Assembly: GCA_022843945.1 (NCBI GenBank)
Contig: JALHMR010000003.1
Location: 1-64,000 of the forward strand
DNA length: 64,000 nucleotides
Origin: Rhodospirillaceae bacterium
GTDB taxonomy: Bacteria > Pseudomonadota > Alphaproteobacteria > CACIAM-22H2
Direction: 5' to 3'
In this document: piece by piece, positions 1,378-15,198 of the stretch
How positions within the stretch are numbered: position 1 is the first letter of the stretch
Layout: every line of letters begins with the position of its first letter
The notes under the pieces: generated by a model
Database searches by the model: none
What the model was told of the DNA's origin: nothing
The model's input: only the letters and a program-made list of their open reading frames with translations
Made by a program: the position numbers and the translations under genes

Positions 1378-1986
1378 CTACTCCACCACCGCCGGGGGAA
1401 GCTCGAACTGATCACGCGTGCGCGCATAGCGGTTGCCGTAGAAGCGGCCGATGGGGAAGAACTTCTCGCCGCGGATGCGGAAGGTCTCGGGATCGAAGAT
1501 GTCGTCCCGCACGTGGAAGTGCACCCCTTCGCCGAGCAGCAGGCGGCGCGTCTCGCCGATCTCGATGACCTGCCGCAGCCGGCATTCGAGCGAGAACGGC
1601 ACGTCTCGGATGCGTGGCGGCTTCACCGCCTTGCTCGGGGCGAGAGCGAGACCGGTCGCCTCGGCTTCGCTCACCCCGGCCGGGTACTCGGCGCTGGTCT
1701 GATGCATGGTCTCGGCCAGCGCCTCGTCGACGATGTTGACCACCCATTCGCCGGTGCGCTGCGCGTTGACCAGGGTGTCCTTGAGCCGCGCGCCCGGCCT
1801 CGGATTGATGCTGATGATGACGATCGGCGGATCGTCGCCCAGCACGTTGAAGAAGCTGAACGGCGCCACGTTCACCGTACCGGCCTCGTTGAGCGTCGTG
1901 GTCCAGGCGATCGGCCGGGGCACGACCAGGGCGGTCAGCAGCTTGTAGCGCTGACGCGCGGTGAGATCGGCGGCGGCGGCGTCCAT
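1378..1986 (-). CDS. flavin reductase family protein (FMN-binding split barrel)
   Basis: 202 residues. The sequence from residue 9 (TARQRYKLLTALVVPRPIAW) through NVAPFSFFNVLGDDPP matches the N-terminal part of the flavin-reductase-like split-barrel family that binds FMN. The C-terminal part has the typical GRFYGNRYARTRD segment. Members reduce free flavin for two-component monooxygenases or act on small substrates themselves. The start ATG overlaps the stop of the upstream carbamoylase (TGATG), so translational coupling is likely. No oxygenase partner sits in this operon, so the acceptor of reduced flavin is unknown. Confidence 0.8.
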   Translation of the reverse strand: MDAAAADLTARQRYKLLTALVVPRPIAWTTTLNEAGTVNVAPFSFFNVLGDDPPIVIISINPRPGARLKDTLVNAQRTGEWVVNIVDEALAETMHQTSAEYPAGVSEAEATGLALAPSKAVKPPRIRDVPFSLECRLRQVIEIGETRRLLLGEGVHFHVRDDIFDPETFRIRGEKFFPIGRFYGNRYARTRDQFELPPAVVE

Positions 1987-2936
1987 CAGTTCGCCGGCTC
2001 CGCCTTGACGCCGGTGCGCTCGGTGATCAGCTTGTAATGCTCGATGCGCCGGTGCTTGGCGAAGTTGAAGGTCTGCTCGCGCAGGTATTCGCCCAAAGAC
2101 AGGTCGCAATCGTAGGCGATCACCTCGTCGCCTTCTGTCAGGGTCTTGGCCACGATCTCGCCGGTCGGCGCCACGATCAGCGATTCGCCATGCATGCCGA
2201 AACCGTCCTCGCGCCCAGCCTTCGCCGTGGCGATCACCCAGCTGGCGTTCTGATAGGCGCCGGCCTGGCACGACAGGCGGTGGTGGAAGACGCGGATATG
2301 CTGCGGCTCTTCGGGGGTGTGGAGGTTTTCGTTGGGCGTGTTGTAGCCGAGCACGATCATCTCGGCGCCCTTGAGCGCCATGACCCGGTAGGTCTCCGGC
2401 CAGCGCCGGTCGTTGCAGATGCACTGCCCGATCAGGACGTTCTCGTCGAACATGCGCCAGACGTCGAAGCCGAGATTGCCGACGTCGAAATAGCGCTTCT
2501 CCAGATGCTGGAAGGCCGCCTCCGGCAGGTGCTCGCTATGGCCCGGCAGATGCACCTTGCGATACTTGCCGACCAGCTGGCCATTCGGCGCCACCAGGAC
2601 CGAGGTGTTGTAGCGCTTCGTCTTGCCCCCCTCCTCCGTCAGCTCGGCATAGCCGAGGTAGAAACCGACCTTGAGCTGCCGCCCGAGCTCGAACAGCGGC
2701 TGCGTCTCGGGACCCGGCATCTGGGCCTCGAAATAGCGGTCGATCTCCGCCTGGTCGGTCATCCACCAGCGCGGGAAGAACGTGGTCAGCGCCAGCTCCG
2801 GGAAGACGACGAAGCGCGCGCCACTGGCATGCGCCTCGCGCATCATCGCCATCAGGCGCTTGACCACGCTGGCGCGGCTGTCGGCACGGTGGATCGGTCC
2901 CAGCTGGGCGGCAGCGACTTTCAGACGGCGGGCCAT
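1986..2936 (-). CDS. N-carbamoyl-D-amino-acid hydrolase (nitrilase superfamily)
   Basis: 316 residues. The nitrilase triad is visible: Glu47 in VFPELALTTFFPRW, Lys127 in KYRKVHLPGH and Cys174 in ICNDRRWPE. These segments, the conserved spacing and YNTP after the nucleophile closely match D-carbamoylases of Agrobacterium type (about 304 residues), rather than beta-ureidopropionase or N-carbamoylputrescine amidase. The enzyme cleaves N-carbamoyl-D-amino acids to D-amino acid, CO2 and ammonia. The gene follows the hydantoinase after 26 bases and overlaps the flavin reductase start by 1 base. The start ATG at 2936 gives the standard N-terminus MARRLKVAAAQLGP. Cytoplasmic; no signal peptide. Confidence 0.85.
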   Translation of the reverse strand: MARRLKVAAAQLGPIHRADSRASVVKRLMAMMREAHASGARFVVFPELALTTFFPRWWMTDQAEIDRYFEAQMPGPETQPLFELGRQLKVGFYLGYAELTEEGGKTKRYNTSVLVAPNGQLVGKYRKVHLPGHSEHLPEAAFQHLEKRYFDVGNLGFDVWRMFDENVLIGQCICNDRRWPETYRVMALKGAEMIVLGYNTPNENLHTPEEPQHIRVFHHRLSCQAGAYQNASWVIATAKAGREDGFGMHGESLIVAPTGEIVAKTLTEGDEVIAYDCDLSLGEYLREQTFNFAKHRRIEHYKLITERTGVKAEPAN

Positions 2937-2962
2937 GGACAGGTTCCTCAAAAGAGTGGGCT

Positions 2963-4426
2963 TCAAAACAGCGGTTGTCCGATCACCCGTTGCGTCAGGG
3001 CGAGCTCCGGCACGGTGCGGCCGAGAGGCTTGGCAGTCTCCGGCTTGGCGCAAGGCAGGAACTGGCCACTGCCGCGCTCGGCGTGCAGCGTTCCATCCTC
3101 GATCACGACGCGGCCGCGGCTGATCACCGTCATCGGCCAGCCCTTGAGGTGGACTCCTTCGTAGGGCGTGTAGCCGACCTTGTCGTGCAGCATCGAGGCG
3201 GCCACCGTCACCTCGCGCTCCGGGTCCCAGATGGCCAGGTCGGCGTCGGAGCCCACAGCGATCGTGCCCTTGCGCGGATAAAGACCGTACATCCTGGCGT
3301 GGTTCTCGGCCGTCAACGCCACGAACTGCGACAGCGTCAGCCGCTTCTTGCCCACGCCTTCGGAGAAGAGCAGCGGCAGGCGCAGCTCCAGCCCCGGCAC
3401 GCCGTTGGCCATCTCCTTGAAGGTCGTCTTCGCGCCCTTGGGCAGCTTGCCCGTCTCGTCGAAGCGGTACGGCGCGTGGTCCGACGAGTAGACTTGGAAG
3501 ACGCCGTCCTTGAGGGCCTGCCACACCGCTTCCTGGGCCGCGGCATCGCGCGGCGGCGGCGAGCAGCAGAACTTGGCGCCTTCGAGGCCGGGCTTGTCGA
3601 TGTCGTCGGCGGTCAGGAACAGGTATTGCGGGCAGGTCTCGCCGTAGAGCCGCAGGCCGCGCCCCTGCGCCTCGCGGATCACCTCGATTGCCTCGCCGGC
3701 CGAGACGTGGACGATGAGCAGCGGCACGTCCACAAGCTCGGCGAGGGCGGCGGCGCGGTAGGTCGCTTCTTTCTCGGCCAGCCGAGCGTGGCTGACCGCG
3801 TGGAACTTCGGCGCGCCGTGCCCCTGCTCCAGCAGCCGCTTGGCCAGCCACTGGATCATGTCGTGGTTCTCGGCGTGGACCATGACCAGCGCGCCTTCGC
3901 GCCGCGCCAGGGCCAGCACGTCGAGCATCTGGGCGTCGGAGAGCTTCAGCTTGTCGTAGGTCATGTAGACCTTGAACGAGGTGTAGCCGTCGCGGATCAG
4001 CGCCGGCAGCTCCTGGCCGAGGACCTGTTCCGTCGGATCCGAGACGATCAGGTGGAAGGCGTAGTCGATCACCGCCTTGGGCTCGGCGCGGGCGTGATAG
4101 GTCTTCACCACCTCGCGCAGCGACTGGCCGCGGTGCTGCGCGGCGAACGGAATGATCGTCGTCGTGCCGCCGAACGCCGCCGACACGGTGCCGCTGTAGA
4201 AATCGTCGGCGCACATCACGCCCATCGACGATTCCTGCTCGACATGGCAGTGGCTGTCGACACCGCCGGGAAGCACCAGCCGGCCTTTGGCGTCCATGTC
4301 ACGTGTTGCCGGCCCCAGCGCATCGCCGAGCGCCGCGATCCGGCCCTGCCTAATTCCGATATCTCCGACAAAGGACTGGGTGGTCGTCACCACCGTACCG
4401 CCGCGGATCGCCAGGTCGAATTCCAT
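2963..4426 (-). CDS. dihydropyrimidinase / D-hydantoinase
   Basis: 487-residue cyclic amidohydrolase. The dinuclear metal site is present: His59 and His61 in DSHCHVE, Lys152 (the carboxylated lysine) in SFKVYMTYD, His184 in VHAEN, His240 in VHVS and Asp316 in SSDHAPY. It opens 5-substituted hydantoins or dihydropyrimidines to N-carbamoyl acids, which the next gene hydrolyses. The ATG at 4426 has GGAAAGAG just upstream; an ATG at 4438 would add four residues and is less well placed. First gene of the operon hydantoinase, carbamoylase, flavin reductase. Substrate preference (hydantoin versus dihydrouracil) cannot be read from the sequence; the D-carbamoylase partner favours D-hydantoinase use. 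Confidence 0.9.
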   Translation of the reverse strand: MEFDLAIRGGTVVTTTQSFVGDIGIRQGRIAALGDALGPATRDMDAKGRLVLPGGVDSHCHVEQESSMGVMCADDFYSGTVSAAFGGTTTIIPFAAQHRGQSLREVVKTYHARAEPKAVIDYAFHLIVSDPTEQVLGQELPALIRDGYTSFKVYMTYDKLKLSDAQMLDVLALARREGALVMVHAENHDMIQWLAKRLLEQGHGAPKFHAVSHARLAEKEATYRAAALAELVDVPLLIVHVSAGEAIEVIREAQGRGLRLYGETCPQYLFLTADDIDKPGLEGAKFCCSPPPRDAAAQEAVWQALKDGVFQVYSSDHAPYRFDETGKLPKGAKTTFKEMANGVPGLELRLPLLFSEGVGKKRLTLSQFVALTAENHARMYGLYPRKGTIAVGSDADLAIWDPEREVTVAASMLHDKVGYTPYEGVHLKGWPMTVISRGRVVIEDGTLHAERGSGQFLPCAKPETAKPLGRTVPELALTQRVIGQPLF

Positions 4427-4504
4427 CGCTCTTTCCATAGCATAGGGGGCGGCCCCGCAACACCGCCGCACCCGGGAACCGCGGGCTAGCGGGGGGGGGC
4501 CGGC

Positions 4505-4520
4505 TGTGACACCTGTCACT
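4505..4520. promoter_or_regulatory. CRP/FNR-like palindrome in the hydantoinase-caspase divergent region
   Basis: TGTGAC-N4-GTCACT, matching the classical CRP half-site pattern TGTGA-N6-TCAC. It sits 57 bases upstream of the caspase start (4578) and about 79 bases upstream of the divergent hydantoinase start (4426). The same 6-base arms recur at 27769-27784. A run of nine G lies just upstream at 4491-4499. Binding by a CRP-family protein is inferred from pattern only. Confidence 0.4.
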
Positions 4521-4577: not shown

Positions 4578-6260
4578 ATGTCGCTACGGCTGTCGATCTT
4601 CGTCGCTGTGTTTTTCCTGCTGCTGCAACCGGCGGCAGCGCAGCAGTCGCGCGTGGCGCTGGTCATCGGCAACGCGCGCTACGCCGAAGCGCCGCTCAAG
4701 AATCCGGTCAACGACGCCCGCGCGATGGCCGCCGCCCTCAGGGCCCGCGGCTTCGAGGTGCTCATCCGGGAAAACGCCACCAAGCAGCAGATGGAGGCAG
4801 CGGTCGCCGATTTCGGCGAGAAGCTGAACGAGAACGCGACCGGCCTGTTCTTCTACGCGGGCCACGGCATCCAGGTGCAGGGCCGCAACTACCTGATGCC
4901 GGTCGACGCCCGTATCGTCTCCGAGCAGCGCATCCGGCTGGAAGCCTTCGATGTCGAGGCGGTCCTCGACCAGATGCAGGCAGCGCGCAGCAAGGTCAGC
5001 ATGCTGATCCTCGACGCCTGCCGCAACAACCCGTTCGAGCGTCGCTTCCGCTCGACCGGCAGCGGCCTGGCCCAGATCAACGCGCCCGAAGGCACGCTGA
5101 TCGCCTATGCCACGGCGCCCGGCAAGGTGGCGGCGGACGGCGACGGCACGAATGGGCTCTACACCCAGGAGTTCCTCAAGGCGCTGGGCACGCCCGGCCT
5201 CAAGGTCGAGGACGTGTTCAAGCAAGTGCGCATCAACGTCAGCCGGGCCTCGGATGGCCTGCAGGTTCCCTGGGAGGCCTCCTCACTGACCGGAGACTTC
5301 TACTTTGTTCCCCCGGCACCCGCGACGGCCACGCCGAGCCTCGACAGGGCGTTCTGGGAAGCCATCAAGGGCAACAACACCCCCGCGGTCTTCCAGGCCT
5401 ATCTCGATGCTTTTCCCGCCGGCGCCTTCGCGCCGGAAGCGCGGGCGCGGATGGCGGCATTGGGTGGATCCTCGATGCCGGTCGGCGACTCTCGCCCGCC
5501 GGGCCCCGTGACCACGGCCCCGATCGTCCCGGCTCCGGCCCCCAAACCCGTCCAGCAGGCCGCCTTGCCGCCCGCCGGCGCGCCGCTCTCCGCCCCGGGC
5601 AAGTTCGACGGGCTTTACGTCGCGACCTCCAGTGACGCGCGTGGCGTCGTGACGTCAACCATCGAAATCTCGGACGCGACGATCAGCGGGTTCAGCGTCA
5701 ACCAGGGCGCCGGCGGCGTCTGCCGGGCGACCGGCTCAATCGAACCCGCCACCGGCGAAGTGAGACTGTTCCAAATGAACTGCCCGAACAACTCGCTGAC
5801 CTACACGGGCCGCTTCACCGGAGGCGATACCGAACTCGCGACACGCGCCACCATCCGTTCGGGCGAGCACACGACGCTATGGAAAAAGACCCAGTCCGCC
5901 GTGCAGCGGGCCGCGCTGGCTCCCGCCGGCGCACCCCTGCCGGCCGGTGCCATCGATGGCCGCTATATCGCCGTGCTCCCGAGCATCGACGGCCTGCCCA
6001 TGACGATGACCATCGATGTGGCCAATCACAGGATCACCGGCTGGGGCACGGCACCCTCGATTACCGGTGTCTGCCGCCTCTTCGGCACGGTGGACGCCTC
6101 CGGCGTCATCCAACGACTGGAGATGGATTGCCGGCTGGCTGGCTGGAATTTCTTCGGAAAGTTCGCCCCGACGGCGGACGGCAGCTACACCGCCGAGACC
6201 GAGGCCCGTAGCCCGACCATGGGCAACCGCACGATCGTCTGGAAAAAGGTCAGTTCATGA
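4578..6260 (+). CDS. secreted caspase family (peptidase C14) protein, paralogue 1
   Basis: 560 residues. A signal peptide (residues 1 to about 21, ending PAAAQ) precedes a caspase-like domain that begins SRVALVIGNARY. The catalytic dyad is His96 in FYAGHG and Cys148 in LDACRNNPF. After the p20-like domain (to about residue 245) comes a short helical segment of the type FWEAIKGNN...AYLDAFP, common behind bacterial caspases, and then a Pro-rich linker. Two copies of an unnamed module of about 100 residues follow (about 338-440 and 455-560). Each runs from a G-x-Y start through a I-x-G-F strand to a Cys-containing C-R and a C-P-N or similar motif. Predicted to act in the periplasm or outside the cell. 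It overlaps paralogue 2 by ATGA. Confidence 0.85.
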   Translation: MSLRLSIFVAVFFLLLQPAAAQQSRVALVIGNARYAEAPLKNPVNDARAMAAALRARGFEVLIRENATKQQMEAAVADFGEKLNENATGLFFYAGHGIQVQGRNYLMPVDARIVSEQRIRLEAFDVEAVLDQMQAARSKVSMLILDACRNNPFERRFRSTGSGLAQINAPEGTLIAYATAPGKVAADGDGTNGLYTQEFLKALGTPGLKVEDVFKQVRINVSRASDGLQVPWEASSLTGDFYFVPPAPATATPSLDRAFWEAIKGNNTPAVFQAYLDAFPAGAFAPEARARMAALGGSSMPVGDSRPPGPVTTAPIVPAPAPKPVQQAALPPAGAPLSAPGKFDGLYVATSSDARGVVTSTIEISDATISGFSVNQGAGGVCRATGSIEPATGEVRLFQMNCPNNSLTYTGRFTGGDTELATRATIRSGEHTTLWKKTQSAVQRAALAPAGAPLPAGAIDGRYIAVLPSIDGLPMTMTIDVANHRITGWGTAPSITGVCRLFGTVDASGVIQRLEMDCRLAGWNFFGKFAPTADGSYTAETEARSPTMGNRTIVWKKVSS

Positions 6261-7960
6261 TTGCCTCGCCTCTGCGGCGGATCTGCGGGACGGCGGCGAT
6301 CGCCGCGGCGGTCCTGCTCGCCCAGCCAGCCGAGGCGCAGGAGTCGCGCGTGGCCCTGGTCATCGGCAACGCGCGCTATGTCGAGGCGCCGCTCAAGAAC
6401 CCGGTCAATGATGCGCGCGCCATGGCGGCCTCGCTCAAGGCCCGCGGCTTCGAGGTGATCGCCCGCGAGAACGCGACGCGCTCCCAGATGGAATCCGCGA
6501 TCGCCGACTTCGGCGAAAAACTCAACGAGGGCGCGACCGGCCTGTTCTTCTTCGCCGGCCATGGCATGCAGGTCCAGGGGCGCAACTACCTCGTACCCGT
6601 CGATGCCCGCATCACCTCCGAGCAGCGCGTGAAGCTCGAGACCGTCGACGTCGACGTCGTGCTCGACCAGATGCAGGCGGCGCGCACCAGGGTCAGCATG
6701 GTGATCCTCGACGCCTGCCGGAACAATCCGTTCGAACGGCGCTTCCGCTCGCTCAACGGTGGCATGGCGCAGATCAACGCGCCGGAGGGCACGCTGATCG
6801 CCTACGCCACGGCGCCCGGCAAGGTGGCCGCCGACGGCGACGGGAGCAATGGCCTCTATACCCAGGAATTCCTCAAGGCGCTGACCAGCCCCGGCCTCAA
6901 GGTCGAGGATGTGTTCAAGCAGGTCCGCGTCAATGTCAGCCGTGCCTCGAACGGCATGCAGGTGCCCTGGGAGGCTTCGTCGCTCACCGGCGATTTCTAT
7001 TTCGTGCCTCCCGCACCTGTCGCCGCGACACCGCAGATCCAGGCGACGCCGCAGACGCTCGATCTTGCCTTCTGGGAAGCGGTCAAAGGCAGCGCCAACC
7101 CGGTGGAGCTTCAGGCCTATCTCGATACATTCCCGAACGGCACCTTCGCCCCTCTGGCGCGCTCGCGGATGGCCGCGATGCGCGCCCCCAGCCCAACTCC
7201 CACCGCGGGCCCCGCCCCGGCGGCAGCCCCGGCGCGTGTTCCGACACCCCCGCCCGCCGCCCCAATACCCAAGCCGGTTCAGCAGGCCTCTCTGCCATCG
7301 CCCTCAACCCCGGCCGGCGCAGATTCATTCAACGGCCTCTACACCGCCTTCTTTAACGGGTCGCGGGGCGCGCTGCAGGCCCAGATAGAAATCGAGGGCA
7401 CGAAGATCGTTGGCTTCGCCTCCGGCGCCGCCCTCTGCCGGATCGCCGGTGAGGTCGACGCCAGCGGCGTCATCCAGCGCTTCGTCATGGAATGCCCCAA
7501 CAGCAGCTGGAGCTTCTCCGGTCAGTTCTCGATCGAGGGCGAGTCCGAGACGACGGCGCGCAGCGATGTCAACACCCGAACAGTAAAATGGAAACGGATA
7601 ACGGTGGCCCGCACGACGTCCGTCGCCGCGCTTCCTCAAGGCACACTCGACGGCCGCTATGCCGGTCAGGTGCGCGGGCGGCACGGCATACTGGCCGCCA
7701 CAATCGACGTCCAGGGCACCAAGATCACCGGCTTCGCCTCCGGACCTTACATCGCGTCGGTGACCGCCATCTGCAAGATCAGCGGCGTGCTCGACCCCGA
7801 CGGCACCATTCAGCTCCTCGACATGCACTGCCCGAACGATTCCTGGCGCTTCACAGGGACGTTCAAGCTCGCCGGCAACGGCACTTACGAGGCGGAGACC
7901 GCCGCGCGCAGCACTACGGCGAACAACCACACCGTTGTCTGGAAGCGCGAAGGGTCCTGA
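6257..7960 (+). CDS. secreted caspase family (peptidase C14) protein, paralogue 2
   Basis: 567 residues, with the same architecture as the preceding gene: signal peptide ending QPAEA, caspase domain with His102 in FFAGHG and Cys154 in LDACRNNPF, FWEAVKGSA...AYLDTFP segment, Pro/Ala-rich linker, and two further copies of the C-terminal module (about 355-455 and 465-567). The caspase domains of the two proteins are nearly identical along long stretches (for example the segment NAPEGTLIAYATAPGKVAAD), while linkers and C-terminal modules have diverged. This points to tandem duplication followed by divergence of the presumed recognition part. Start is ATG overlapping the upstream stop. The gene converges on the ParA-like gene with no gap. 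Confidence 0.85.
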   Translation: MIASPLRRICGTAAIAAAVLLAQPAEAQESRVALVIGNARYVEAPLKNPVNDARAMAASLKARGFEVIARENATRSQMESAIADFGEKLNEGATGLFFFAGHGMQVQGRNYLVPVDARITSEQRVKLETVDVDVVLDQMQAARTRVSMVILDACRNNPFERRFRSLNGGMAQINAPEGTLIAYATAPGKVAADGDGSNGLYTQEFLKALTSPGLKVEDVFKQVRVNVSRASNGMQVPWEASSLTGDFYFVPPAPVAATPQIQATPQTLDLAFWEAVKGSANPVELQAYLDTFPNGTFAPLARSRMAAMRAPSPTPTAGPAPAAAPARVPTPPPAAPIPKPVQQASLPSPSTPAGADSFNGLYTAFFNGSRGALQAQIEIEGTKIVGFASGAALCRIAGEVDASGVIQRFVMECPNSSWSFSGQFSIEGESETTARSDVNTRTVKWKRITVARTTSVAALPQGTLDGRYAGQVRGRHGILAATIDVQGTKITGFASGPYIASVTAICKISGVLDPDGTIQLLDMHCPNDSWRFTGTFKLAGNGTYEAETAARSTTANNHTVVWKREGS

Positions 7961-8623
7961 TCAGGCGACCGGGTGAGCGGCCCGCGCCCAGAGCTCCTCG
8001 CCCAGTGCCGTGATTTCCTGAGTGGCGGTCGAGTTCGGCTCGCTTTCCGACACCCCTGCGCCCTCGGCCAGCGTCTCGGCAAAAGCCACGCGGTTCCCGA
8101 GGGTTGCCTCGGCCACGCCGATGCCGAGGCTCGTCAGCCGGCTGATCATCTCGTCCGCCAGCCGGGCGCGCGCCGGCATCCGGTTGACCACCAGCATCAG
8201 GGGTCGGCGCTCGGTGACCGCGAGCTCAAGCGTCGGCCGGGTTGCCCACAGGTCCATAGGCGAGGGCTGCACCGGCACGACCACCAGCGACGCGGCGCGC
8301 ACGGCGATCCGCGCCTCGGTCTCGGCATGGGGCGGTGAATCCACCAGGACGGCGTCGTGATCGCGCGCCAGGCGCTCGGCCTCGGTGGCCAGCCGCCAGC
8401 CGGCGATCTGCGAGAAGGTGAAGCCGGGATGGCCGTCGGTTCCCGCCTCGCGGCGCACCTCGCTGCGGATGGCAACCCAGCGGCTCAGGCTGCCCTGCGG
8501 ATCGATGTCGATCACCGCCACCCGGCGGCCGAGGCCGCTCCACAGCACCGCCAGATGGGCCACCAGCGTCGTCTTGCCGGCCCCGCCCTTCTGTTGCGCC
8601 ACCGTGAAGACCCTGCCCGCCAA
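7961..8623 (-). CDS. ParA/MinD-type partition ATPase, orphan
   Basis: 220 residues from a TTG start at 8623, preceded by GGGAGAA at good spacing. This start gives MAGRVFTVAQQKGGAGKTTL, the expected beta strand plus deviant Walker A motif with the signature Lys. Further motifs are DIDPQGSLSRW (switch I) and LVDSPPHAE (Walker B / switch II). The length is that of small ParA proteins without a DNA-binding N-terminal domain. These ATPases position plasmids, chromosomes or protein cargoes. No parB or cargo gene lies next to it, so the partner is unknown. Longer in-frame readings upstream (to 8812) lack a start with a ribosome site and are probably not coding. Confidence 0.8.
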   Translation of the reverse strand: MAGRVFTVAQQKGGAGKTTLVAHLAVLWSGLGRRVAVIDIDPQGSLSRWVAIRSEVRREAGTDGHPGFTFSQIAGWRLATEAERLARDHDAVLVDSPPHAETEARIAVRAASLVVVPVQPSPMDLWATRPTLELAVTERRPLMLVVNRMPARARLADEMISRLTSLGIGVAEATLGNRVAFAETLAEGAGVSESEPNSTATQEITALGEELWARAAHPVA

Positions 8624-8741
8624 AAAAATTCTCCCGATCCCGCACGCCGCCCCAGATTTCGCGAGTGTGACGACCCCGTGCCCCCACCGCAAGCACCGGC
8701 GCGCCCGGAGGCCGCAACGCCCTCGCTTGCAGCAAGGGAGC

Positions 8742-8769
8742 GCCGTCACCTTCGGGTGACGGCTCTTTT
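8742..8769 (+). terminator. strong intrinsic terminator with UUCG tetraloop
   Basis: A perfect 9-bp stem, GCCGTCACC (8742-8750) with GGTGACGGC (8755-8763), closes a TTCG loop in the extra-stable C(UUCG)G context and is followed by TCTTTTC. The T-rich tail is on the + strand only. No + strand gene ends nearby: the last one ends at 7960 and a - strand gene lies between. It must terminate a non-coding transcript, or protect sua5 from readthrough. Confidence 0.75.
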
Positions 8770-8792
8770 CGTTTCGTGGTAGCAGGACGCCG

Positions 8793-9755
8793 ATGAAGCT
8801 CCGCCATGCCATCGAGCGACCGACCAGACGGGCGGCCCTCCGTGCCGCCCGCCTGTTGCGCGCCGGCAGGCTCGTCGCCTTTCCGACCGAAACGGTCTAC
8901 GGCCTGGGAGCCGACGCGACGTCCGACCGGGCGGTCGCCGGCATCTATGCTGCCAAGCGGCGGCCGCGACACAACCCGCTGATCATCCACGTCGCCAGCC
9001 TTGCCGAGGCGCGGCGGCTCGCCCGTTTCGATGCGCGGGCGGAAGCCCTAGCACGCGCCTTCTGGCCTGGCCCCCTGACGCTGGTACTTGCCCGGCGGGC
9101 GGGCGCGCGCCTGTCGCGCCTGGCCAGTGCGGGCCTGCGCACCGTCGCCATCCGGATCCCCGACGATCGCGTGGCGCTTGACCTCCTGCGGCGGACCGGA
9201 CGGCCGCTCGCCGCTCCCAGCGCCAACCGCTCGGGCGGGGTCAGCCCGACGCGCGCCGCGCATGTGCGCCTTTCCCTGGGCGGCCGCGTTTCGCTGATCC
9301 TCGATGGCGGGCCTTGCCGGGTCGGCGTCGAATCCACGGTTCTCGACGTCAGCAGCCCCAGAGCGCGGCTCTTGCGCCCCGGCGGTGTGCCGCTCGAGAC
9401 ACTGGAGGCCACCATCGGCGCGATCGAGGTTGATAGCGCCACGACAGAGGAAGCCCGGCCGGCTTCACCCGGCCGCTTGCTCAGCCACTACGCACCGCAA
9501 CGGCCGGTGCGACCGGGTGCGTCCGAGCCACGCGCCGGCGAAGCCTACCTGGCGTTCGGCCGGACCAACCAGCCGGCGACGCTCAATCTCAGTCCAACGG
9601 GAAATCTGGCGGAGGCAGCGGCCAACCTCTTCGCCATGCTGCAGGCGCTCGACCGCCCGGAATTCAGTGCCATTGCCGTGGCACCGATCCCCCAGCGCGG
9701 GCTGGGGCGGGCGATCAACGACCGGCTGAAGCGCGCGGCAGCGCCGCGCCGCTAG
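8793..9755 (+). CDS. L-threonylcarbamoyladenylate synthase (Sua5/TsaC family)
   Basis: 320 residues. The YrdC/Sua5 domain spans about residues 15-205: GRLVAFPTETVYGLGADA near the start, KRRPRHNPLIIHV, and APSANRSGGVSPT at the nucleotide-binding site. A C-terminal Sua5 domain follows, with its linker motif SPGRLLSHYAPQRP around residue 225. The enzyme makes threonylcarbamoyl-AMP from Thr, bicarbonate and ATP for the t6A modification at position 37 of ANN-decoding tRNAs. The two-domain form is Sua5-type rather than the short TsaC. The start at 8793 is 24 bases after the terminator tail. Confidence 0.9.
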   Translation: MKLRHAIERPTRRAALRAARLLRAGRLVAFPTETVYGLGADATSDRAVAGIYAAKRRPRHNPLIIHVASLAEARRLARFDARAEALARAFWPGPLTLVLARRAGARLSRLASAGLRTVAIRIPDDRVALDLLRRTGRPLAAPSANRSGGVSPTRAAHVRLSLGGRVSLILDGGPCRVGVESTVLDVSSPRARLLRPGGVPLETLEATIGAIEVDSATTEEARPASPGRLLSHYAPQRPVRPGASEPRAGEAYLAFGRTNQPATLNLSPTGNLAEAAANLFAMLQALDRPEFSAIAVAPIPQRGLGRAINDRLKRAAAPRR

Positions 9756-9762
9756 CCGACGA

Positions 9763-9888
9763 TCAGAAGCGGACCGCCAAGGTGACGGCGACGATCGCTG
9801 CCATCAGCCAGAGGGCAACAAACACCAGGCGCTCGTTCGTCACCTCGGTCGCTACGCGGATCTGTGCTTCGCTGGGCCTGCGGGTCAT
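9763..9888 (-). CDS. small membrane protein, 41 residues
   Basis: A short open frame from ATG 9888 to TGA 9763, with AGAGAGGA placed 6 bases before the start, a strong ribosome site. The first half is charged and polar (MTRRPSEAQIRVATEVTNER). The second half is a single hydrophobic segment (LVFVALWLMAAIVAVTLAV) ending RF. This looks like a single-pass inner-membrane microprotein. It converges on sua5 with an 8-base gap. I know no family for it; the evidence is the ribosome site plus the clean amphipathic/hydrophobic layout. Confidence 0.6.
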   Translation of the reverse strand: MTRRPSEAQIRVATEVTNERLVFVALWLMAAIVAVTLAVRF

Positions 9889-10109
9889 CGGAAATCCTCT
9901 CTGCTTGTCCGTGGTCGATATGTACCGGGAAGAGCTTGCCGGGCCCTTAAGCCTTATGGTTCACCGCCCGTAAAAATTCGCCCGCAACTTGTGGAGATTT
10001 CTAACGAATTGGAGGCACACGCAGCCGGCTGAGAGCTTCGGCCGGCTACTGAGTCCAACGTGGGACGACAACCTTGCCCCTGCCGGGGCGCTGCGATACG
10101 TCTTGCGGC

Positions 10110-11558
10110 ATGGCAACCGTGCTGCACCAGCCCTCCGCGGTCTCCCTCGAACGCATCAAATCCGTGGTCGGGCCCAAGGGCTGGACGACCGACCCCGCCG
10201 ACATGGCGCCGCTGCTGCTGGAGGAACGTGGCCACTACCGCGGGCGCGCCGCGTTGCTGGTCCGGCCGGCCTCCACCGCCGAAGTCGCCGAGGTCGTACG
10301 CATCTGCGCTGAAACCGGCACGCCGGTCGTGCCCCAGGGGGGCAACACGGGGATGATGGGCGGCGCCACGCCGTTCGAGCACGGCGGCGAGGTCCTGCTC
10401 AGCCTGTCGCGTATGAACCGCATCCGCGCGATCGACCCGCTCAACTACACGATGACGGCCGAAGCCGGCTGCGTCCTCGCCAACCTGCAGAAGGCTGCCG
10501 ACGACGCCGACCGGCTGTTCCCGCTGAGCCTGGGCGCCGAGGGTACGTGCCAGATCGGCGGCAACCTCTCGACCAACGCCGGCGGCGTCCAGGTGCTGCG
10601 GTACGGCATGGCCCGCGATCTCGTGCTTGGCCTCGAAGTGGTGCTGCCCGATGGCCGCGTGCTCGAGGGCCTGCGCGGCCTGCGCAAGGACAACACCGGC
10701 TACGACTTGAAGCAGCTCTTCCTGGGCGCGGAAGGTACGCTCGGCATCATCACTGCCGCCGTGCTGAAGCTCTTCCCCCGGCCGCGGGAAAACGAAACGG
10801 CCTTCCTCGCCGTGCGCGACCCGGCGGCGGCGATCGAATTGCTCGCCCGTATCCGCAGCGGCACCGGCGACGCGGTCACCGCTTTCGAGCTGATCTCGCG
10901 CACGGCGCTGGGCATGGTGCTGCGCCATATCCCCGGTACCAGCGATCCGCTGGCCGAGCCCCATCAGTGGTACGTGCTGGTCGAGTGCGCTTCGGGCGAT
11001 AGTGGCGGCGGCCTGCGTGACGCGCTGGAGCGCGCGCTTGCTGGGGCCCTCGAGGCCGGGCTGATTCTCGACGCCACGCTCGCGGCCAGCGCCCAGCAGT
11101 CAAAGGCGATGTGGCGGCTGCGCGACAGCATCACCGAGGCGCAGAAGCACGAGGGCGGCAGCATCAAGCATGACGTGTCCGTTCCCGTGTCGTCGGTTGC
11201 CACCTTCATCGCCGAGGCCTCGACCGCCGTGGAACGCGCCGTTCCCGGCATACGCCCCGTCGCGTTCGGGCATGTCGGCGACGGCAATATCCATTTCAAC
11301 GTCAGCCAGCCCGGCAGCGAGCCGCGTGAGGGCGCGCCGCTGGCGGCCTTCCTGGCCCGCTGGGAAGAGGTCAATCGCGTCGTCCACGACATCGTGGCGC
11401 GCATGAACGGCAGCATCTCCGCCGAGCACGGAATCGGCCGGCGCAAGGTCGGCGAGCTCGCCCACTACAAATCGCCGATCGAGATCGAGCTCATGCAGAC
11501 GCTCAAGCGGACACTCGACCCCAAGAACATCATGAATCCCGGCAAGGTCGTGCCATGA
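10110..11558 (+). CDS. FAD-linked dehydrogenase (D-lactate / D-2-hydroxyglutarate dehydrogenase family)
   Basis: 482 residues. An N-terminal PCMH-type FAD domain carries the pyrophosphate loop PQGGNTGMMGG (about residues 75-85) and the LGAEGTCQIGGNLSTNAGG segment. The C-terminal FAD-oxidase domain has HVGDGNIHFN and ends with EHGIGRRK near residue 440, both seen in D-2-hydroxyacid dehydrogenases, where the His residues bind a divalent metal. It oxidises a D-2-hydroxyacid to the 2-oxoacid and passes electrons to a flavoprotein or quinone. It is first in an operon with an acyl-CoA ligase (ATGA overlap) and an acyl-CoA dehydrogenase. The ATG at 10110 is preferred to an in-frame ATG at 10074 because family proteins begin close to the FAD domain. 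Confidence 0.85.
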   Translation: MATVLHQPSAVSLERIKSVVGPKGWTTDPADMAPLLLEERGHYRGRAALLVRPASTAEVAEVVRICAETGTPVVPQGGNTGMMGGATPFEHGGEVLLSLSRMNRIRAIDPLNYTMTAEAGCVLANLQKAADDADRLFPLSLGAEGTCQIGGNLSTNAGGVQVLRYGMARDLVLGLEVVLPDGRVLEGLRGLRKDNTGYDLKQLFLGAEGTLGIITAAVLKLFPRPRENETAFLAVRDPAAAIELLARIRSGTGDAVTAFELISRTALGMVLRHIPGTSDPLAEPHQWYVLVECASGDSGGGLRDALERALAGALEAGLILDATLAASAQQSKAMWRLRDSITEAQKHEGGSIKHDVSVPVSSVATFIAEASTAVERAVPGIRPVAFGHVGDGNIHFNVSQPGSEPREGAPLAAFLARWEEVNRVVHDIVARMNGSISAEHGIGRRKVGELAHYKSPIEIELMQTLKRTLDPKNIMNPGKVVP

Positions 11559-13399
11559 ACGATACCGGCACCTCGGCCTGGCAGCGCTTCCACCTGCCGA
11601 CGCTCGACATCCAGCGCCGCAGCGACGGCAGCGTCCTGATCAACCCCAAGGAGCCGGTCGGTCCCTATGAGCGCTGTATCGGCGAGATGCTGGCGCGCTG
11701 CGTCCGGGAGTTTCCGACACGCCTTTACATGGCGGCGCGCGAGAACAGCGGCCCGTGGCGCAAGCTGACCTATGCCGAGGCCGGCACGGCAAGCCGCGCC
11801 ATCGCCCAGGCGCTGCTCGACCGCAAGCTGGGACCGGAACGGCCGGTCCTGATCGTGGCCGAGAACGGCATCGATCACGCCCTCCTGGCGCTGGGCTGCC
11901 TCGTAGTTGGCGTGCCCTTCGTCCCGGTCTCCGCCGCCTATGCGCGCCCGGGCCAGGGCTTCAGCAAGCTCAAATACATTCTTGATCTCATCCAGCCCGG
12001 AATGATCTTCATCGACACCTGGGCCCGCTATGCCGGGGCGCGCGAAGCGCTCGACGCCGCCGGCGTTGAAACGGTCGTGGCCGGCGAGCTTCCGGCCAAC
12101 GCGGGCGTGACCCCGTTTGCCGAGCTCACCCGCGCCACGCCGGGGGCAGCGGTCGACAAGGCCGCCGCCGCGGTCGGCCCCGATACCATCGCCAAGGTGC
12201 TGTTCACTTCCGGCTCGACCGACATGCCCAAGGGCGTGATCAACACCCAGCGCATGATCTGCGCCAACCAGAACCAGATCGAATTCAGCTGGCCGTTCCT
12301 CAAGGAACGTCCGCCGGTGCTGGTCGACTGGCTGCCCTGGAGCCACACTTTCGCCGGCAACCACAACTTTCACCTGATCCTGCGCCACGGTGGCACGTAT
12401 TACATCGACGAGGGAAAGCCCGCCCCGGGCCTGATCGAGAAGACAGTGGCGAATCTTCGAGAAGTCTCGCCGACCATGTACCTCAACGTGCCGCGAGGCT
12501 ACGCCCTGCTGCTCGATCATCTGGAGCGTGATACGGCGCTGCGCGACCGGTTTTTCGCCGACCTCTATTTCGTCTTCTACGCAGGTGCGGCGATGGCCGA
12601 GAATCTGCAGGAGCGCCTGCGCAACCTCGCCCGCCAGGTGAAGGGGGAGCCGGTGCCGCTGGTCTCGGCCTGGGGCGCCACCGAGACCGCGCCGCAGGCG
12701 ACCGGCGTCAACTATCCCAACCAGTATCCACCCTGCATCGGCCTGCCCTCACCCGGGGTCGAGATCAAGCTGGCGCCGGTCGGCGACAAACACGAGATCC
12801 GCGTCCGCGGGCCCAATGTCACGCCGGGCTACTGGCGCCGCCCCGACGCCACCCAGGCGGCCTTCGACGAAGAAGGGTTCTATCGCTCCGGCGACGCGGC
12901 GCGCTTCTGCGAGCCCGCCGACCCGATGAAGGGCCTGATGTTCGACGGCCGCATCACCGAGAACTTCAAGCTCTCGACCGGCACCTGGGTGCATGTCGGC
13001 ACGTTGCGCGTGGCCCTGATCGCCGCCGGCGCCCCGGTGATCGAGGACTGCGTGATCACCGGGCACGACCGCGACGAGATCGGCGCGCTGATCTTCCCCA
13101 GTGTCGCCGGGTGCCGTTCTCTGTGTAAGGACTTGCCGGCCGACGCGCCGCTCACGGCCCTGGTCGAGCATCCGGCCGTCCACCAGGCCCTGCAGGCGGG
13201 CCTCAAGCGCCTCGCCGACCAGGGCGGCGGCAGTTCGATGCGGGTGGCACGGGCGATCTTCGTCACCGCCCCGCCGACCATCGACGCCAACGAGATCACC
13301 GACAAAGGGTACCTCAATCAGCGCGCCGTGCTGGCCAATCGCGGCGCCGTGGTCGAGCAGCTCTACGCGGGCGGCTCCTCTGTCATCCAACTGAAATAA
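11555..13399 (+). CDS. feruloyl-CoA synthetase-like AMP-dependent acyl-CoA ligase
   Basis: 614 residues. The adenylate-forming motif FTSGSTDMPKGVI lies at about residues 217-229, and the second core motif (SAWGATETAP) near residue 370. The N-terminal part (LPKEP-like NPKEPVGPYERCIGEMLARC) and the continuation VINTQRMICANQNQ after the P-loop are typical of bacterial feruloyl-CoA synthetases. Those activate hydroxycinnamates with ATP and CoA. No enoyl-CoA hydratase/aldolase or vanillin dehydrogenase is adjacent; instead an acyl-CoA dehydrogenase follows. The true substrate may therefore be another aryl- or alkyl-carboxylate degraded by beta-oxidation. Starts inside the stop of the previous gene. 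Confidence 0.8.
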   Translation: MNDTGTSAWQRFHLPTLDIQRRSDGSVLINPKEPVGPYERCIGEMLARCVREFPTRLYMAARENSGPWRKLTYAEAGTASRAIAQALLDRKLGPERPVLIVAENGIDHALLALGCLVVGVPFVPVSAAYARPGQGFSKLKYILDLIQPGMIFIDTWARYAGAREALDAAGVETVVAGELPANAGVTPFAELTRATPGAAVDKAAAAVGPDTIAKVLFTSGSTDMPKGVINTQRMICANQNQIEFSWPFLKERPPVLVDWLPWSHTFAGNHNFHLILRHGGTYYIDEGKPAPGLIEKTVANLREVSPTMYLNVPRGYALLLDHLERDTALRDRFFADLYFVFYAGAAMAENLQERLRNLARQVKGEPVPLVSAWGATETAPQATGVNYPNQYPPCIGLPSPGVEIKLAPVGDKHEIRVRGPNVTPGYWRRPDATQAAFDEEGFYRSGDAARFCEPADPMKGLMFDGRITENFKLSTGTWVHVGTLRVALIAAGAPVIEDCVITGHDRDEIGALIFPSVAGCRSLCKDLPADAPLTALVEHPAVHQALQAGLKRLADQGGGSSMRVARAIFVTAPPTIDANEITDKGYLNQRAVLANRGAVVEQLYAGGSSVIQLK

Positions 13400-13413
13400 A
13401 AGTTTCATACTCG

Positions 13414-15198
13414 ATGAGCTACACGGCCCCGATCCGCGACATGCAGTTCGCCCTGGCCATTGCCGGGCTCGACAAGGTGGCGCCCCTGTTTGGCGAGAAC
13501 GCCGCGCCCGACCTGGTCGGCCAGGTTCTCGAGGAGGCCGGCAAGCTGGCGAACGAGGTGCTGGCGCCGATCAACCGCTCCGGTGACATCGAGGGCTCGG
13601 TGCTGGAGAACGGTGTCGTGCGCACGCCCAAGGGCTTCAAGGAAGCCTACAAGGCCTACGCCGAGGGCGGCTGGAACGGCCTGCCTTTCGATCCGGAATA
13701 CGGCGGCCAGGGCCTGCCCTGGACGATCGCCATCCCGGTCCAGGAGATGTGGAACGCCGCCAATCTCGGCTGGGCGGTCGGGCCGCTCCTCACCTTCGGC
13801 GCCGTCGAGGCCCTGACGGCGCACGGCACGGCCGAGCAGAAGCAGACCTACCTGCCCAGGCTGATCTCCGGCGAGTGGGCCGCCACCATGAACCTGACCG
13901 AGCCGCAGGCGGGCTCCGACGTGGGGGCGCTGCGCACCCGGGCGGTGCGCGAGGGCAGCCACTACCGGATCAGCGGCCAGAAGATCTTCATCACCTACGG
14001 CGACCAGGACTGGACCGACAATATCATCCACCTGGTTCTGGCCCGGCTGCCCGATGCGCCGACCGGCCCCAAGGGAATCTCCCTGTTCATCGTGCCCAAG
14101 TTCATGGTGCGGCCCGACTGCAGCCTCGGCGAGCGCAACGACCTCCGAGTCGTCTCGCTCGAGCACAAGATGGGCATCAACGGCTCGCCGACCTGCGTGA
14201 TGGCCTACGGCGATGGCGGGGGCGCGCTGGGCTATCTCGTCGGCCAGGAGAACGAAGGCCTGGCCTGCATGTTCACCATGATGAACAACGCCCGCCTCCA
14301 GGTCGGGCTGCAGGGTGTCGCCATCGCCGAGCGGGCTTACCAGCAGGCCCGCGACTACGCCCGGAGCCGCGTGCAGAGCCGGGAACTGGGCAGCCGCAGC
14401 CCCTCAGGCGTGCCGATCATCCGGCACCCCGACGTCCGGCGGATGCTGCTGACCATGAAAGCCCTGACCGAGGCCTCCCGGGCCCTCGCCTACTCGGCCG
14501 CGGCGTCGCTTGACCTCGCCAAGCGCGCTCCTGACGAAGCTGAACGCGCCCGCCACCAGGCCCGCATGGACCTGCTCACGCCGGTGGTCAAAGCCTGGAG
14601 CACGGATATCGGCGTCGAGGTGGCCTCCCTGGGCATCCAGGTGCATGGCGGCATGGGCTTCATCGAGGAAACCGGAGCGGCCCAGCACTATCGCGACGCC
14701 CGGATCACGCCGATCTACGAAGGCACCAACGGCATCCAGGCCAATGACCTGGTGTTCCGCAAGCTGGGGCGCGACAAGGGCGAGGCGGCCCGGGCCTTTC
14801 TGGCCGAGATCCGGGAGACCGAGGCGGCGCTGTCCGCCGGACCGGGTGATGACCTGGCGGCGATCCGCCGGCAGCTCGCCGGCGGTCGGGAGACATTGGA
14901 GGCCGCTACCCAGGCGGTGGTCGCCGGACTCGACGGCGACCCGAGGCGCTCCGCCGTCGCGGCAGTGCCGTATCTGAAGCTCTTCGGGACCGTCGCGGGG
15001 GGCCATTTCCTCGCCCGTGGCGCCGTGTCGGCCGTCGAGCACCTGGGCGGCGGCGCCAGCGACTCGGATTTTTACGAGGCAAGGTTGGCCGTCGCGCGCT
15101 TCTACGCCGACCATATTCTGAGCCAGGCGCCCGCCTTGCTCCATCCGATCCGTGACGGCGCTTCCGCCGTGCTCGCTCTCGCCGAAGATCAGTTCTAG
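13414..15198 (+). CDS. acyl-CoA dehydrogenase, DmdC-like (3-methylmercaptopropionyl-CoA dehydrogenase family)
   Basis: 594 residues, the length of the long DmdC-type subfamily rather than the 380-residue classical enzymes. The N-terminus MSYTAPIRDMQFAL is typical of the subfamily. FAD/substrate motifs include MNLTEPQAGSDVGALRT (about residues 160-175) and the catalytic-base region RITPIYEGTNGIQ, with Glu near residue 435. A C-terminal extra domain (about 470-594) completes the family form. It inserts an alpha-beta double bond in an acyl-CoA. Located 14 bases after the ligase, so it probably acts on the CoA ester that the ligase makes. Whether that is an aromatic side chain or methylmercaptopropionate cannot be told. 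Confidence 0.85.
   Translation: MSYTAPIRDMQFALAIAGLDKVAPLFGENAAPDLVGQVLEEAGKLANEVLAPINRSGDIEGSVLENGVVRTPKGFKEAYKAYAEGGWNGLPFDPEYGGQGLPWTIAIPVQEMWNAANLGWAVGPLLTFGAVEALTAHGTAEQKQTYLPRLISGEWAATMNLTEPQAGSDVGALRTRAVREGSHYRISGQKIFITYGDQDWTDNIIHLVLARLPDAPTGPKGISLFIVPKFMVRPDCSLGERNDLRVVSLEHKMGINGSPTCVMAYGDGGGALGYLVGQENEGLACMFTMMNNARLQVGLQGVAIAERAYQQARDYARSRVQSRELGSRSPSGVPIIRHPDVRRMLLTMKALTEASRALAYSAAASLDLAKRAPDEAERARHQARMDLLTPVVKAWSTDIGVEVASLGIQVHGGMGFIEETGAAQHYRDARITPIYEGTNGIQANDLVFRKLGRDKGEAARAFLAEIRETEAALSAGPGDDLAAIRRQLAGGRETLEAATQAVVAGLDGDPRRSAVAAVPYLKLFGTVAGGHFLARGAVSAVEHLGGGASDSDFYEARLAVARFYADHILSQAPALLHPIRDGASAVLALAEDQF

Follow-up and report, generated by a model that had tools for sequence, protein, structure and literature searches.

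Tandem caspase-like proteases, probably exported, with duplicated and fast-changing modules of predicted barrel fold in a Rhodospirillaceae bacterium

What does a bacterium gain from two adjacent caspase-like proteases that hold their catalytic part almost constant while their C-terminal parts diverge? The question is raised by a gene pair of a Rhodospirillaceae bacterium located in the first 64,000 nucleotides of contig JALHMR010000003.1 (the whole stretch analysed, hereafter the window). The two open reading frames (ORFs), 4578-6260 and 6257-7960, lie on the same strand, encode proteins of 560 (p1) and 567 amino acids (p2) and are probably co-translated, since they overlap by four bases (ATGA). 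Both proteins have the same domain order, i.e., a signal-peptide-like start, a full Peptidase_C14 domain, a helical stretch that carries the motif YLxxFPxGxF, a proline-rich linker and, at the C-terminus, a module of about 100 residues present twice (M1 and M2 in p1, M3 and M4 in p2). Our answer, which is tentative and carries slightly less than even confidence, is that p1 and p2 are paralogous, exported, Arg/Lys-specific envelope proteases whose modules, predicted to be barrels, bind a changing partner, perhaps in connection with CHASE2 signalling.

An initial annotation, made from the letters of the window, had proposed that the module occurs in four copies and has no known name, and both points hold. 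Pairwise identity among M1-M4 is 31-48% (highest for M3-M4, 48%; M2-M4, 42%; M1-M3, 34%), BLAST gave E-values from 3e-12 to 7e-29 in the four of six pairs run, and leave-one-out hidden Markov models (three modules against the fourth) scored 64.6-96.3 bits, so far above the best shuffles (7.1-11.9 bits, 485-494 shuffles per module) that the repeats are not due to chance. The motifs first proposed fared unevenly: G-x-Y and I-x-G recur in all four modules, but C-R and C-P-N in three each (M4 has C-K, M2 has C-R-L), and across all 12 module copies recovered here and in relatives the only invariant residues are two cysteines and two glycines. Pfam gave nothing better than E 0.079 for these 12 copies, and a PDB sequence search with the module profile gave no convincing match, at a sensitivity that leaves distant kinship possible. 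DUF6864 and CHS5_N (both at E 0.079) and PHROG 3018 (head decoration, E 0.01) were matched by one or two members each and were taken as chance.

Structure prediction, suggested with the initial annotation, points to a familiar fold class. The AlphaFold2 model of M4 (seven-row alignment) is an eight-stranded meander barrel, with a predicted local distance difference test score (pLDDT) of 87.2 and a predicted template modelling score (pTM) of 0.79. Its best Foldseek matches in the PDB were designed beta barrels and avidins (E 1.4e-3, template modelling score, TM, ~0.6), and with VIA-align 2 it matched the C-terminal part of HphA (Z 10.1 over 97 residues), avidin (9.7), streptavidin (~9) and TbpB (8.8 over 95 residues), all over 88-102 residues and with HphA and TbpB tied with the avidins; models without a clear match usually reach Z 7-8 as their best, and the match of this model is good, not overwhelming. 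Judged by the model, the fold class of the module is known; its sequence family is not. Each module holds two cysteines, the others of p1 and p2 being the catalytic ones and one in the p2 signal peptide, and each barrel would probably be held by one disulfide in its beta4-beta5 hairpin.

On the protease side, Peptidase_C14 (PF00656) covers model positions 2-233 of 233 in both proteins, at 149.5 and 151 bits against a cut-off of 21.4, and the His-Cys dyads read from the sequence are intact, as first annotated (H96/C148 in p1 and H102/C154 in p2, in the contexts AGHG and DACR). Over residues 22-250 the two catalytic domains share 84% identity, which bears out a conserved protease, although the original wording, "nearly identical", was slightly strong. 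Among solved chains the closest is MALT1 (E 6e-16 for p2, 7e-15 for p1), the residues of which were numbered by counting from H415 and C464. A section of PMC4626109 describes P1-Arg in MALT1 as held by three acidic residues, and in the phmmer alignment D52, D152 and D193 of p2 fall on these three contacts. Such an acidic S1 pocket predicts cleavage after Arg or Lys. A third caspase-domain gene lies elsewhere in the same genome (contig C40, L034:4593-6221); its peptidoglycan-binding domain precedes a weak C14 match (E 1.6e-7), and SSHG and EACF occupy the dyad positions.

The divergence of the modules on a constant protease, also proposed initially, is seen in both rates and identities. A tree built from 77 rows of catalytic-domain sequence groups p1 with p2 as sisters (support 99/97), and the pair therefore arose by duplication within the lineage. 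For p1 against p2 the nonsynonymous (Ka) and synonymous (Ks) divergences are 0.093 and 0.63-0.65 for the protease and 0.587 and 1.01 for the modules. In five of six pairs, namely p1-p2 and four of five pairs from a sister genus, Ka of the modules exceeds that of the protease 6- to 13-fold. The same pattern recurs at one syntenic locus of that genus (G012, G023, G025, G028 and G029), where the proteases are 77-95% identical and the modules 17-34%, except for the G012-G023 modules at 83%; the gene upstream is 69-84% identical in the four genomes in which it is complete. Recent gene conversion of the catalytic domain was considered and rejected on account of its substantial synonymous divergence, so that purifying selection explains its conservation. 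A module tree did not recover the order of module doubling and gene doubling, the sequences being short and diverged.

The module itself has a narrow range. A four-copy profile found in its own genome only the M1-M4 sites and one chance-level stretch (E 0.32, with an internal stop), and among 23 genomes of the order it matched in that genome alone. Profile-profile comparison linked it to a second version (score 38.4; best of 200 column shuffles, 21.7), present as eight copies in 7 of the 23 genomes, all of one genus; seven of the eight frames also encode C14 or part of it, and the contig of the eighth ends just upstream. Wider searches scored about a dozen candidates per genome, so that distant copies can escape: among 385 genomes of the class a seven-row profile matched in four, and two of these matches (E ~0.004, in frames of 62 and 1111 amino acids) are not accepted; among 398 genomes of the phylum a 12-row profile matched in one, with nothing convincing beyond the family. 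The module was found in one alphaproteobacterial family only, C-terminal on a predicted exported caspase wherever the gene is readable; the caspase protein of G028 is the same as in a metagenome-assembled genome (MAG) record labelled Azospirillum sp. (L035, L115). In G006, a caspase that adjoins Sua5 (L030:5346-7760) ends in three tandem modules of ~100 residues with another cysteine spacing, in register by eye; they score 20.8 vs. a shuffle maximum of 20.3 (0/150 higher) and, with the other profile, 20.4 (2/150 shuffles higher), and possibly share the barrel fold of M1-M4.

Both p1 and p2 begin with a run of hydrophobic residues and then an A-x-A-type site, and they probably leave the cell interior, as the initial annotation had it. 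Signal peptides were called, for these proteins and their relatives, by a crude test of hydrophobicity and an A-x-A site in the sequence. This test finds a signal-peptide-like start in 73 of 89 related proteins, and close relatives with a complete 5' end retain it, i.e., the loss of export signals that would have spoken against the initial proposal was not seen. Its further claim, that an extracytoplasmic location is unusual for bacterial caspases, is contradicted by these counts and by a passage of Asplund-Samuelsson 2012 (PMC3501461), in which N-terminal helices of bacterial caspases are noted as likely signal peptides and an extracellular role as possible; exported caspases appear to be common in bacteria, and the predicted location of p1 and p2 is not unusual. 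For the domain scan, trees, motif and rate work 75 of the 89 frames were kept, and 14 were dropped because their caspase domain lay far from the start or because they were cut by a contig end or were second frames of one locus. Among the 75, domains found were FGE-sulfatase (21), DUF4189 (6), SH3_3 (6), PEGA (6), PG_binding_1 (4) and CsgG (4). A comparison of C-terminal profiles took in 72 of these 75 frames, those with a C-terminal part of at least 80 residues; the C-terminus in L036 (score 25.6 vs. a maximum of 17.0 among 72 reversed sequences, probability 16%) is a possible distant relative, which we do not claim. Tandem exported caspases were also seen elsewhere by the same calls, three in a Hyphomicrobiales MAG (L110:2124-7541) and two at each of two loci (L064, L066) of Rhodospirillaceae R-7.

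In the sister genus a one-module caspase gene lies between a gene for a TPR-CHAT protein with a lipoprotein-like start and genes for a small exported protein and a CHASE2-cyclase, in that order. This order is complete in four loci (G012, G023, G025, G028) and cut by contig ends in two (G029, G026). At L179:5200-12816 and its counterparts in L176, L177 and L178, likewise of this genus, the gene set is conserved and the exported caspase is an optional insert after TPR-CHAT. The small exported protein has no Pfam match and is FecR-like by eye only. At six further TPR-CHAT places, including all three in the genome of p1 and p2, the set is absent within the few kilobases examined; TPR-CHAT in this genome has two small exported proteins as neighbours, which are barrel-like by eye and gave no profile match. 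A link between the caspase and signalling would thus be one of guilt by association in relatives, not at the window. There, the pair is flanked by an amidohydrolase gene (Amidohydro_1, hydantoinase-like by eye) and a pair of ParA-like (ParA-type Pfam) and Sua5-like (by eye) genes. The latter open a cluster at 7961-15198 (ParA-like, Sua5-like, FAD-oxidase-like and acyl-CoA-dehydrogenase-like, the last three named by eye) that many genomes of the family retain. The surroundings of Sua5 were compared at 14 of 20 other places, in 14 genomes: ParA adjoins it in 12, and only G006 has a caspase there, with a protease 73% identical to that of p2. On the minus strand, 1378-4519 of the window carries amidohydrolase, nitrilase-like and flavin-reductase-like genes (the last two by eye), perhaps a hydantoin or pyrimidine degradation set.

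We postulate the following course of events. A lineage-specific tandem duplication produced two paracaspase-like C14 proteases, each probably secreted by its signal peptide and, with an active-looking dyad and an acidic S1 pocket, likely to cut after Arg or Lys. The helical stretch and proline-rich linker would join the protease to two avidin/TbpB-like barrels, most likely the binding part, which would recruit it to a periplasmic or surface partner and evolve fast in step with changes in that partner, against a constant protease. Proteolysis would probably feed or tune envelope signalling, proposed because the one-barrel form of the sister genus sits between the TPR-CHAT lipoprotein and CHASE2-cyclase genes. 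Target recognition by the diverged modules, as first suggested, fits the data. Of this account, the computations show the repeats, the predicted fold, the cysteine pair, the rates, the gene order and the duplication; export, cut specificity, disulfide, binding of a partner and the part in signalling are inferred from them. Several observations weigh against this account: the barrel is a common fold, the full-length model is poor (pLDDT 53.5), leaves the domain arrangement unfixed and served for secondary structure only, a strong C14 match is present in only 12 of the 23 genomes of the order, and in the sixth pair compared (G012-G023) module and protease Ka differ only 2.5-fold. Four relatives (G005, G006, G009, G024) carry the set of TPR-CHAT, small protein and CHASE2 without a caspase, and neither CHAT nor CHASE2 adjoins the window pair; in its own genome TPR-CHAT is encoded on other contigs, without small-protein or CHASE2 neighbours. 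The average module Ka/Ks is 0.10-0.65, which relaxed constraint would explain too, and since it stays below 1 diversifying or positive selection on the modules is not demonstrated.

The last point is the opening for a somewhat unlikely alternative in which the barrels, loosely constrained, serve passively as spacers or for stability, only the protease matters and module divergence is neutral drift. Ratios below 1 in every pair tested would agree with it, as would the lack of invariant positions beyond the two cysteines and two glycines, yet all 12 copies preserve the fold, both cysteines and the reading frame, the modules are doubled in both window genes, full relaxation should bring decay, and the G012-G023 modules remain highly similar. 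Exchange of C-terminal modules among caspase genes by recombination, rather than change in place, appears decidedly unlikely to us. It would account for the G006 caspase, which shares the Sua5 neighbour and a protease close to that of p2 and has three modules without a significant match, and for the finding that conserved residues share their codons less often in modules than in the protease (p<0.05 in 11 of 28 non-independent pairs, all in that direction). However, misaligned residues in low-identity modules push this test towards a difference, and the closest pairs show none (p1-p2, p=0.16; G025-G029, p=0.33; G005-G025, p=0.55; G012-G023, p=0.3), so modules changing fast in place seems the simpler reading. 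A role in cell death or anti-phage defence, as the PADLOC model and the bacterial caspase literature might suggest, we consider highly improbable. PADLOC PDLC02987 ("caspase") does match p1 and p2 (E 1.9e-15 and 6.2e-15), and the patchy presence in the order is what a defence gene could show; the match is, however, limited to model positions 5-143 of 453, the shared catalytic part, NCBIfam NF047832 (caspase, EACC1-associated type) scores only 66.6 and 62.7 bits, far below its cut-off of 140, p1 and p2 are probably exported, and the genes examined directly beside the pair have metabolic or housekeeping roles.

If the barrels do bind partners, caspase-type proteolysis would be tied to cyclic-nucleotide signalling across the envelope. 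A bolder and, to our mind, unlikely version is that an Arg/Lys caspase with fast-changing avidin-fold barrels, a TPR-CHAT lipoprotein protease and a small exported protein control the CHASE2-cyclase in envelope sensing, an extracytoplasmic caspase-type cascade with a cyclic-nucleotide readout, and that in the window lineage the caspase came to lie outside the operon, was duplicated and had its barrels doubled, giving several recognition parts per catalytic engine. Irrespective of that, a near-constant protease with a small, foldable module that varies quickly at one orthologous locus offers a handle on the role of exported bacterial caspases, as do the predicted cut specificity and the candidate partners named by the operon (TPR-CHAT lipoprotein, small exported protein and CHASE2-cyclase).

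Table 1 Features of the caspase gene pair, with window positions
Feature	Position	Strand	Basis
Gene 1 (p1, 560 amino acids), probably exported caspase-like protease with two C-terminal modules	4578..6260	+	ORF; PF00656 E 1.6e-43
Gene 2 (p2, 567 amino acids), paralogous to gene 1, whose stop it overlaps with its start (ATGA)	6257..7960	+	ORF; PF00656 E 5.7e-44; sister of p1 in tree, 99/97
p1 probable signal peptide, residues 1 to ~22	4578..4643	+	Hydrophobic 11-residue window 3.06, then AAAQ; sequence only
p2 probable signal peptide, residues 1 to ~28	6257..6340	+	Hydrophobic 11-residue window 2.4, then AEAQ; sequence only
p1 C14 domain; His96 4863-4865, Cys148 5019-5021	4650..5303	+	PF00656; dyad from sequence
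p2 C14 domain; His102 6560-6562, Cys154 6716-6718; D52, D152, D193 acidic	6347..7000	+	PF00656; phmmer alignment to MALT1
p1 helical stretch with YLxxFPxGxF motif	5332..5458	+	Repeat D3; motif in 56/75 related caspases
p2 helical stretch with YLxxFPxGxF motif	7050..7176	+	Repeat D3; three helices, residues 268-309, in full-length model, local pLDDT ~75-83
Module M1 (Cys382, Cys402)	5601..5897	+	Repeat, motifs, leave-one-out profile
Module M2 (Cys499, Cys518)	5940..6257	+	Repeat, motifs, leave-one-out profile
Module M3 (Cys394, Cys413)	7322..7612	+	Repeat, motifs, leave-one-out profile
Module M4 (Cys506, Cys525), predicted eight-stranded barrel	7637..7957	+	Repeat, motifs, leave-one-out profile; AlphaFold2 pLDDT 87.2, pTM 0.79

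As far as our searches went, three things are new: a module of predicted avidin fold present in duplicate, the speed at which it diverges while the protease does not, and the operon in which the sister form lies; the titles and abstract openings searched described neither the module nor an operon of caspase, CHAT and CHASE2-cyclase. An exported C14 protease with a C-terminal accessory domain is an already known architecture, of which the window pair is a variant. Like the bacterial metacaspases and orthocaspases treated in the part of PMC3501461 cited above, which have N-terminal helices, diverse C-terminal domains and a proposed extracellular role, p1 and p2 have C14 near the N-terminus after a likely signal peptide and a C-terminal accessory domain, but their accessory domain is a duplicated module, of predicted avidin fold, without a Pfam model and without mention in that part. 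The MALT1 paracaspase is the best solved match in sequence, and its three P1-Arg contact positions (per the section of PMC4626109 used) are acidic in p2 too, whereas p1 and p2 are bacterial, probably exported and show no further MALT1 domain by Pfam. The module model shares the eight-stranded meander barrel of avidin and streptavidin and the barrel fold of TbpB and hemophilin (HphA), although the module gave no Pfam or PDB sequence match to any of them and identities in the fold alignments are mostly at or below ~15%. The TPR-CHAT protein (Csx29) of type III-E CRISPR (Craspase) combines TPR and CHAT as does the upstream neighbour in the sister genus, but the latter has a lipoprotein-like start and lies beside genes for a predicted exported caspase and a CHASE2-cyclase. 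Finally, in the Burkholderia operon of FecR/LysM and a CHASE2 histidine kinase, going by a portion of PMC5192318, a small exported protein gene likewise adjoins a CHASE2 receptor gene, while the receptor of the sister genus ends in a nucleotide cyclase, its small protein has no Pfam counterpart and the set also includes protease genes.

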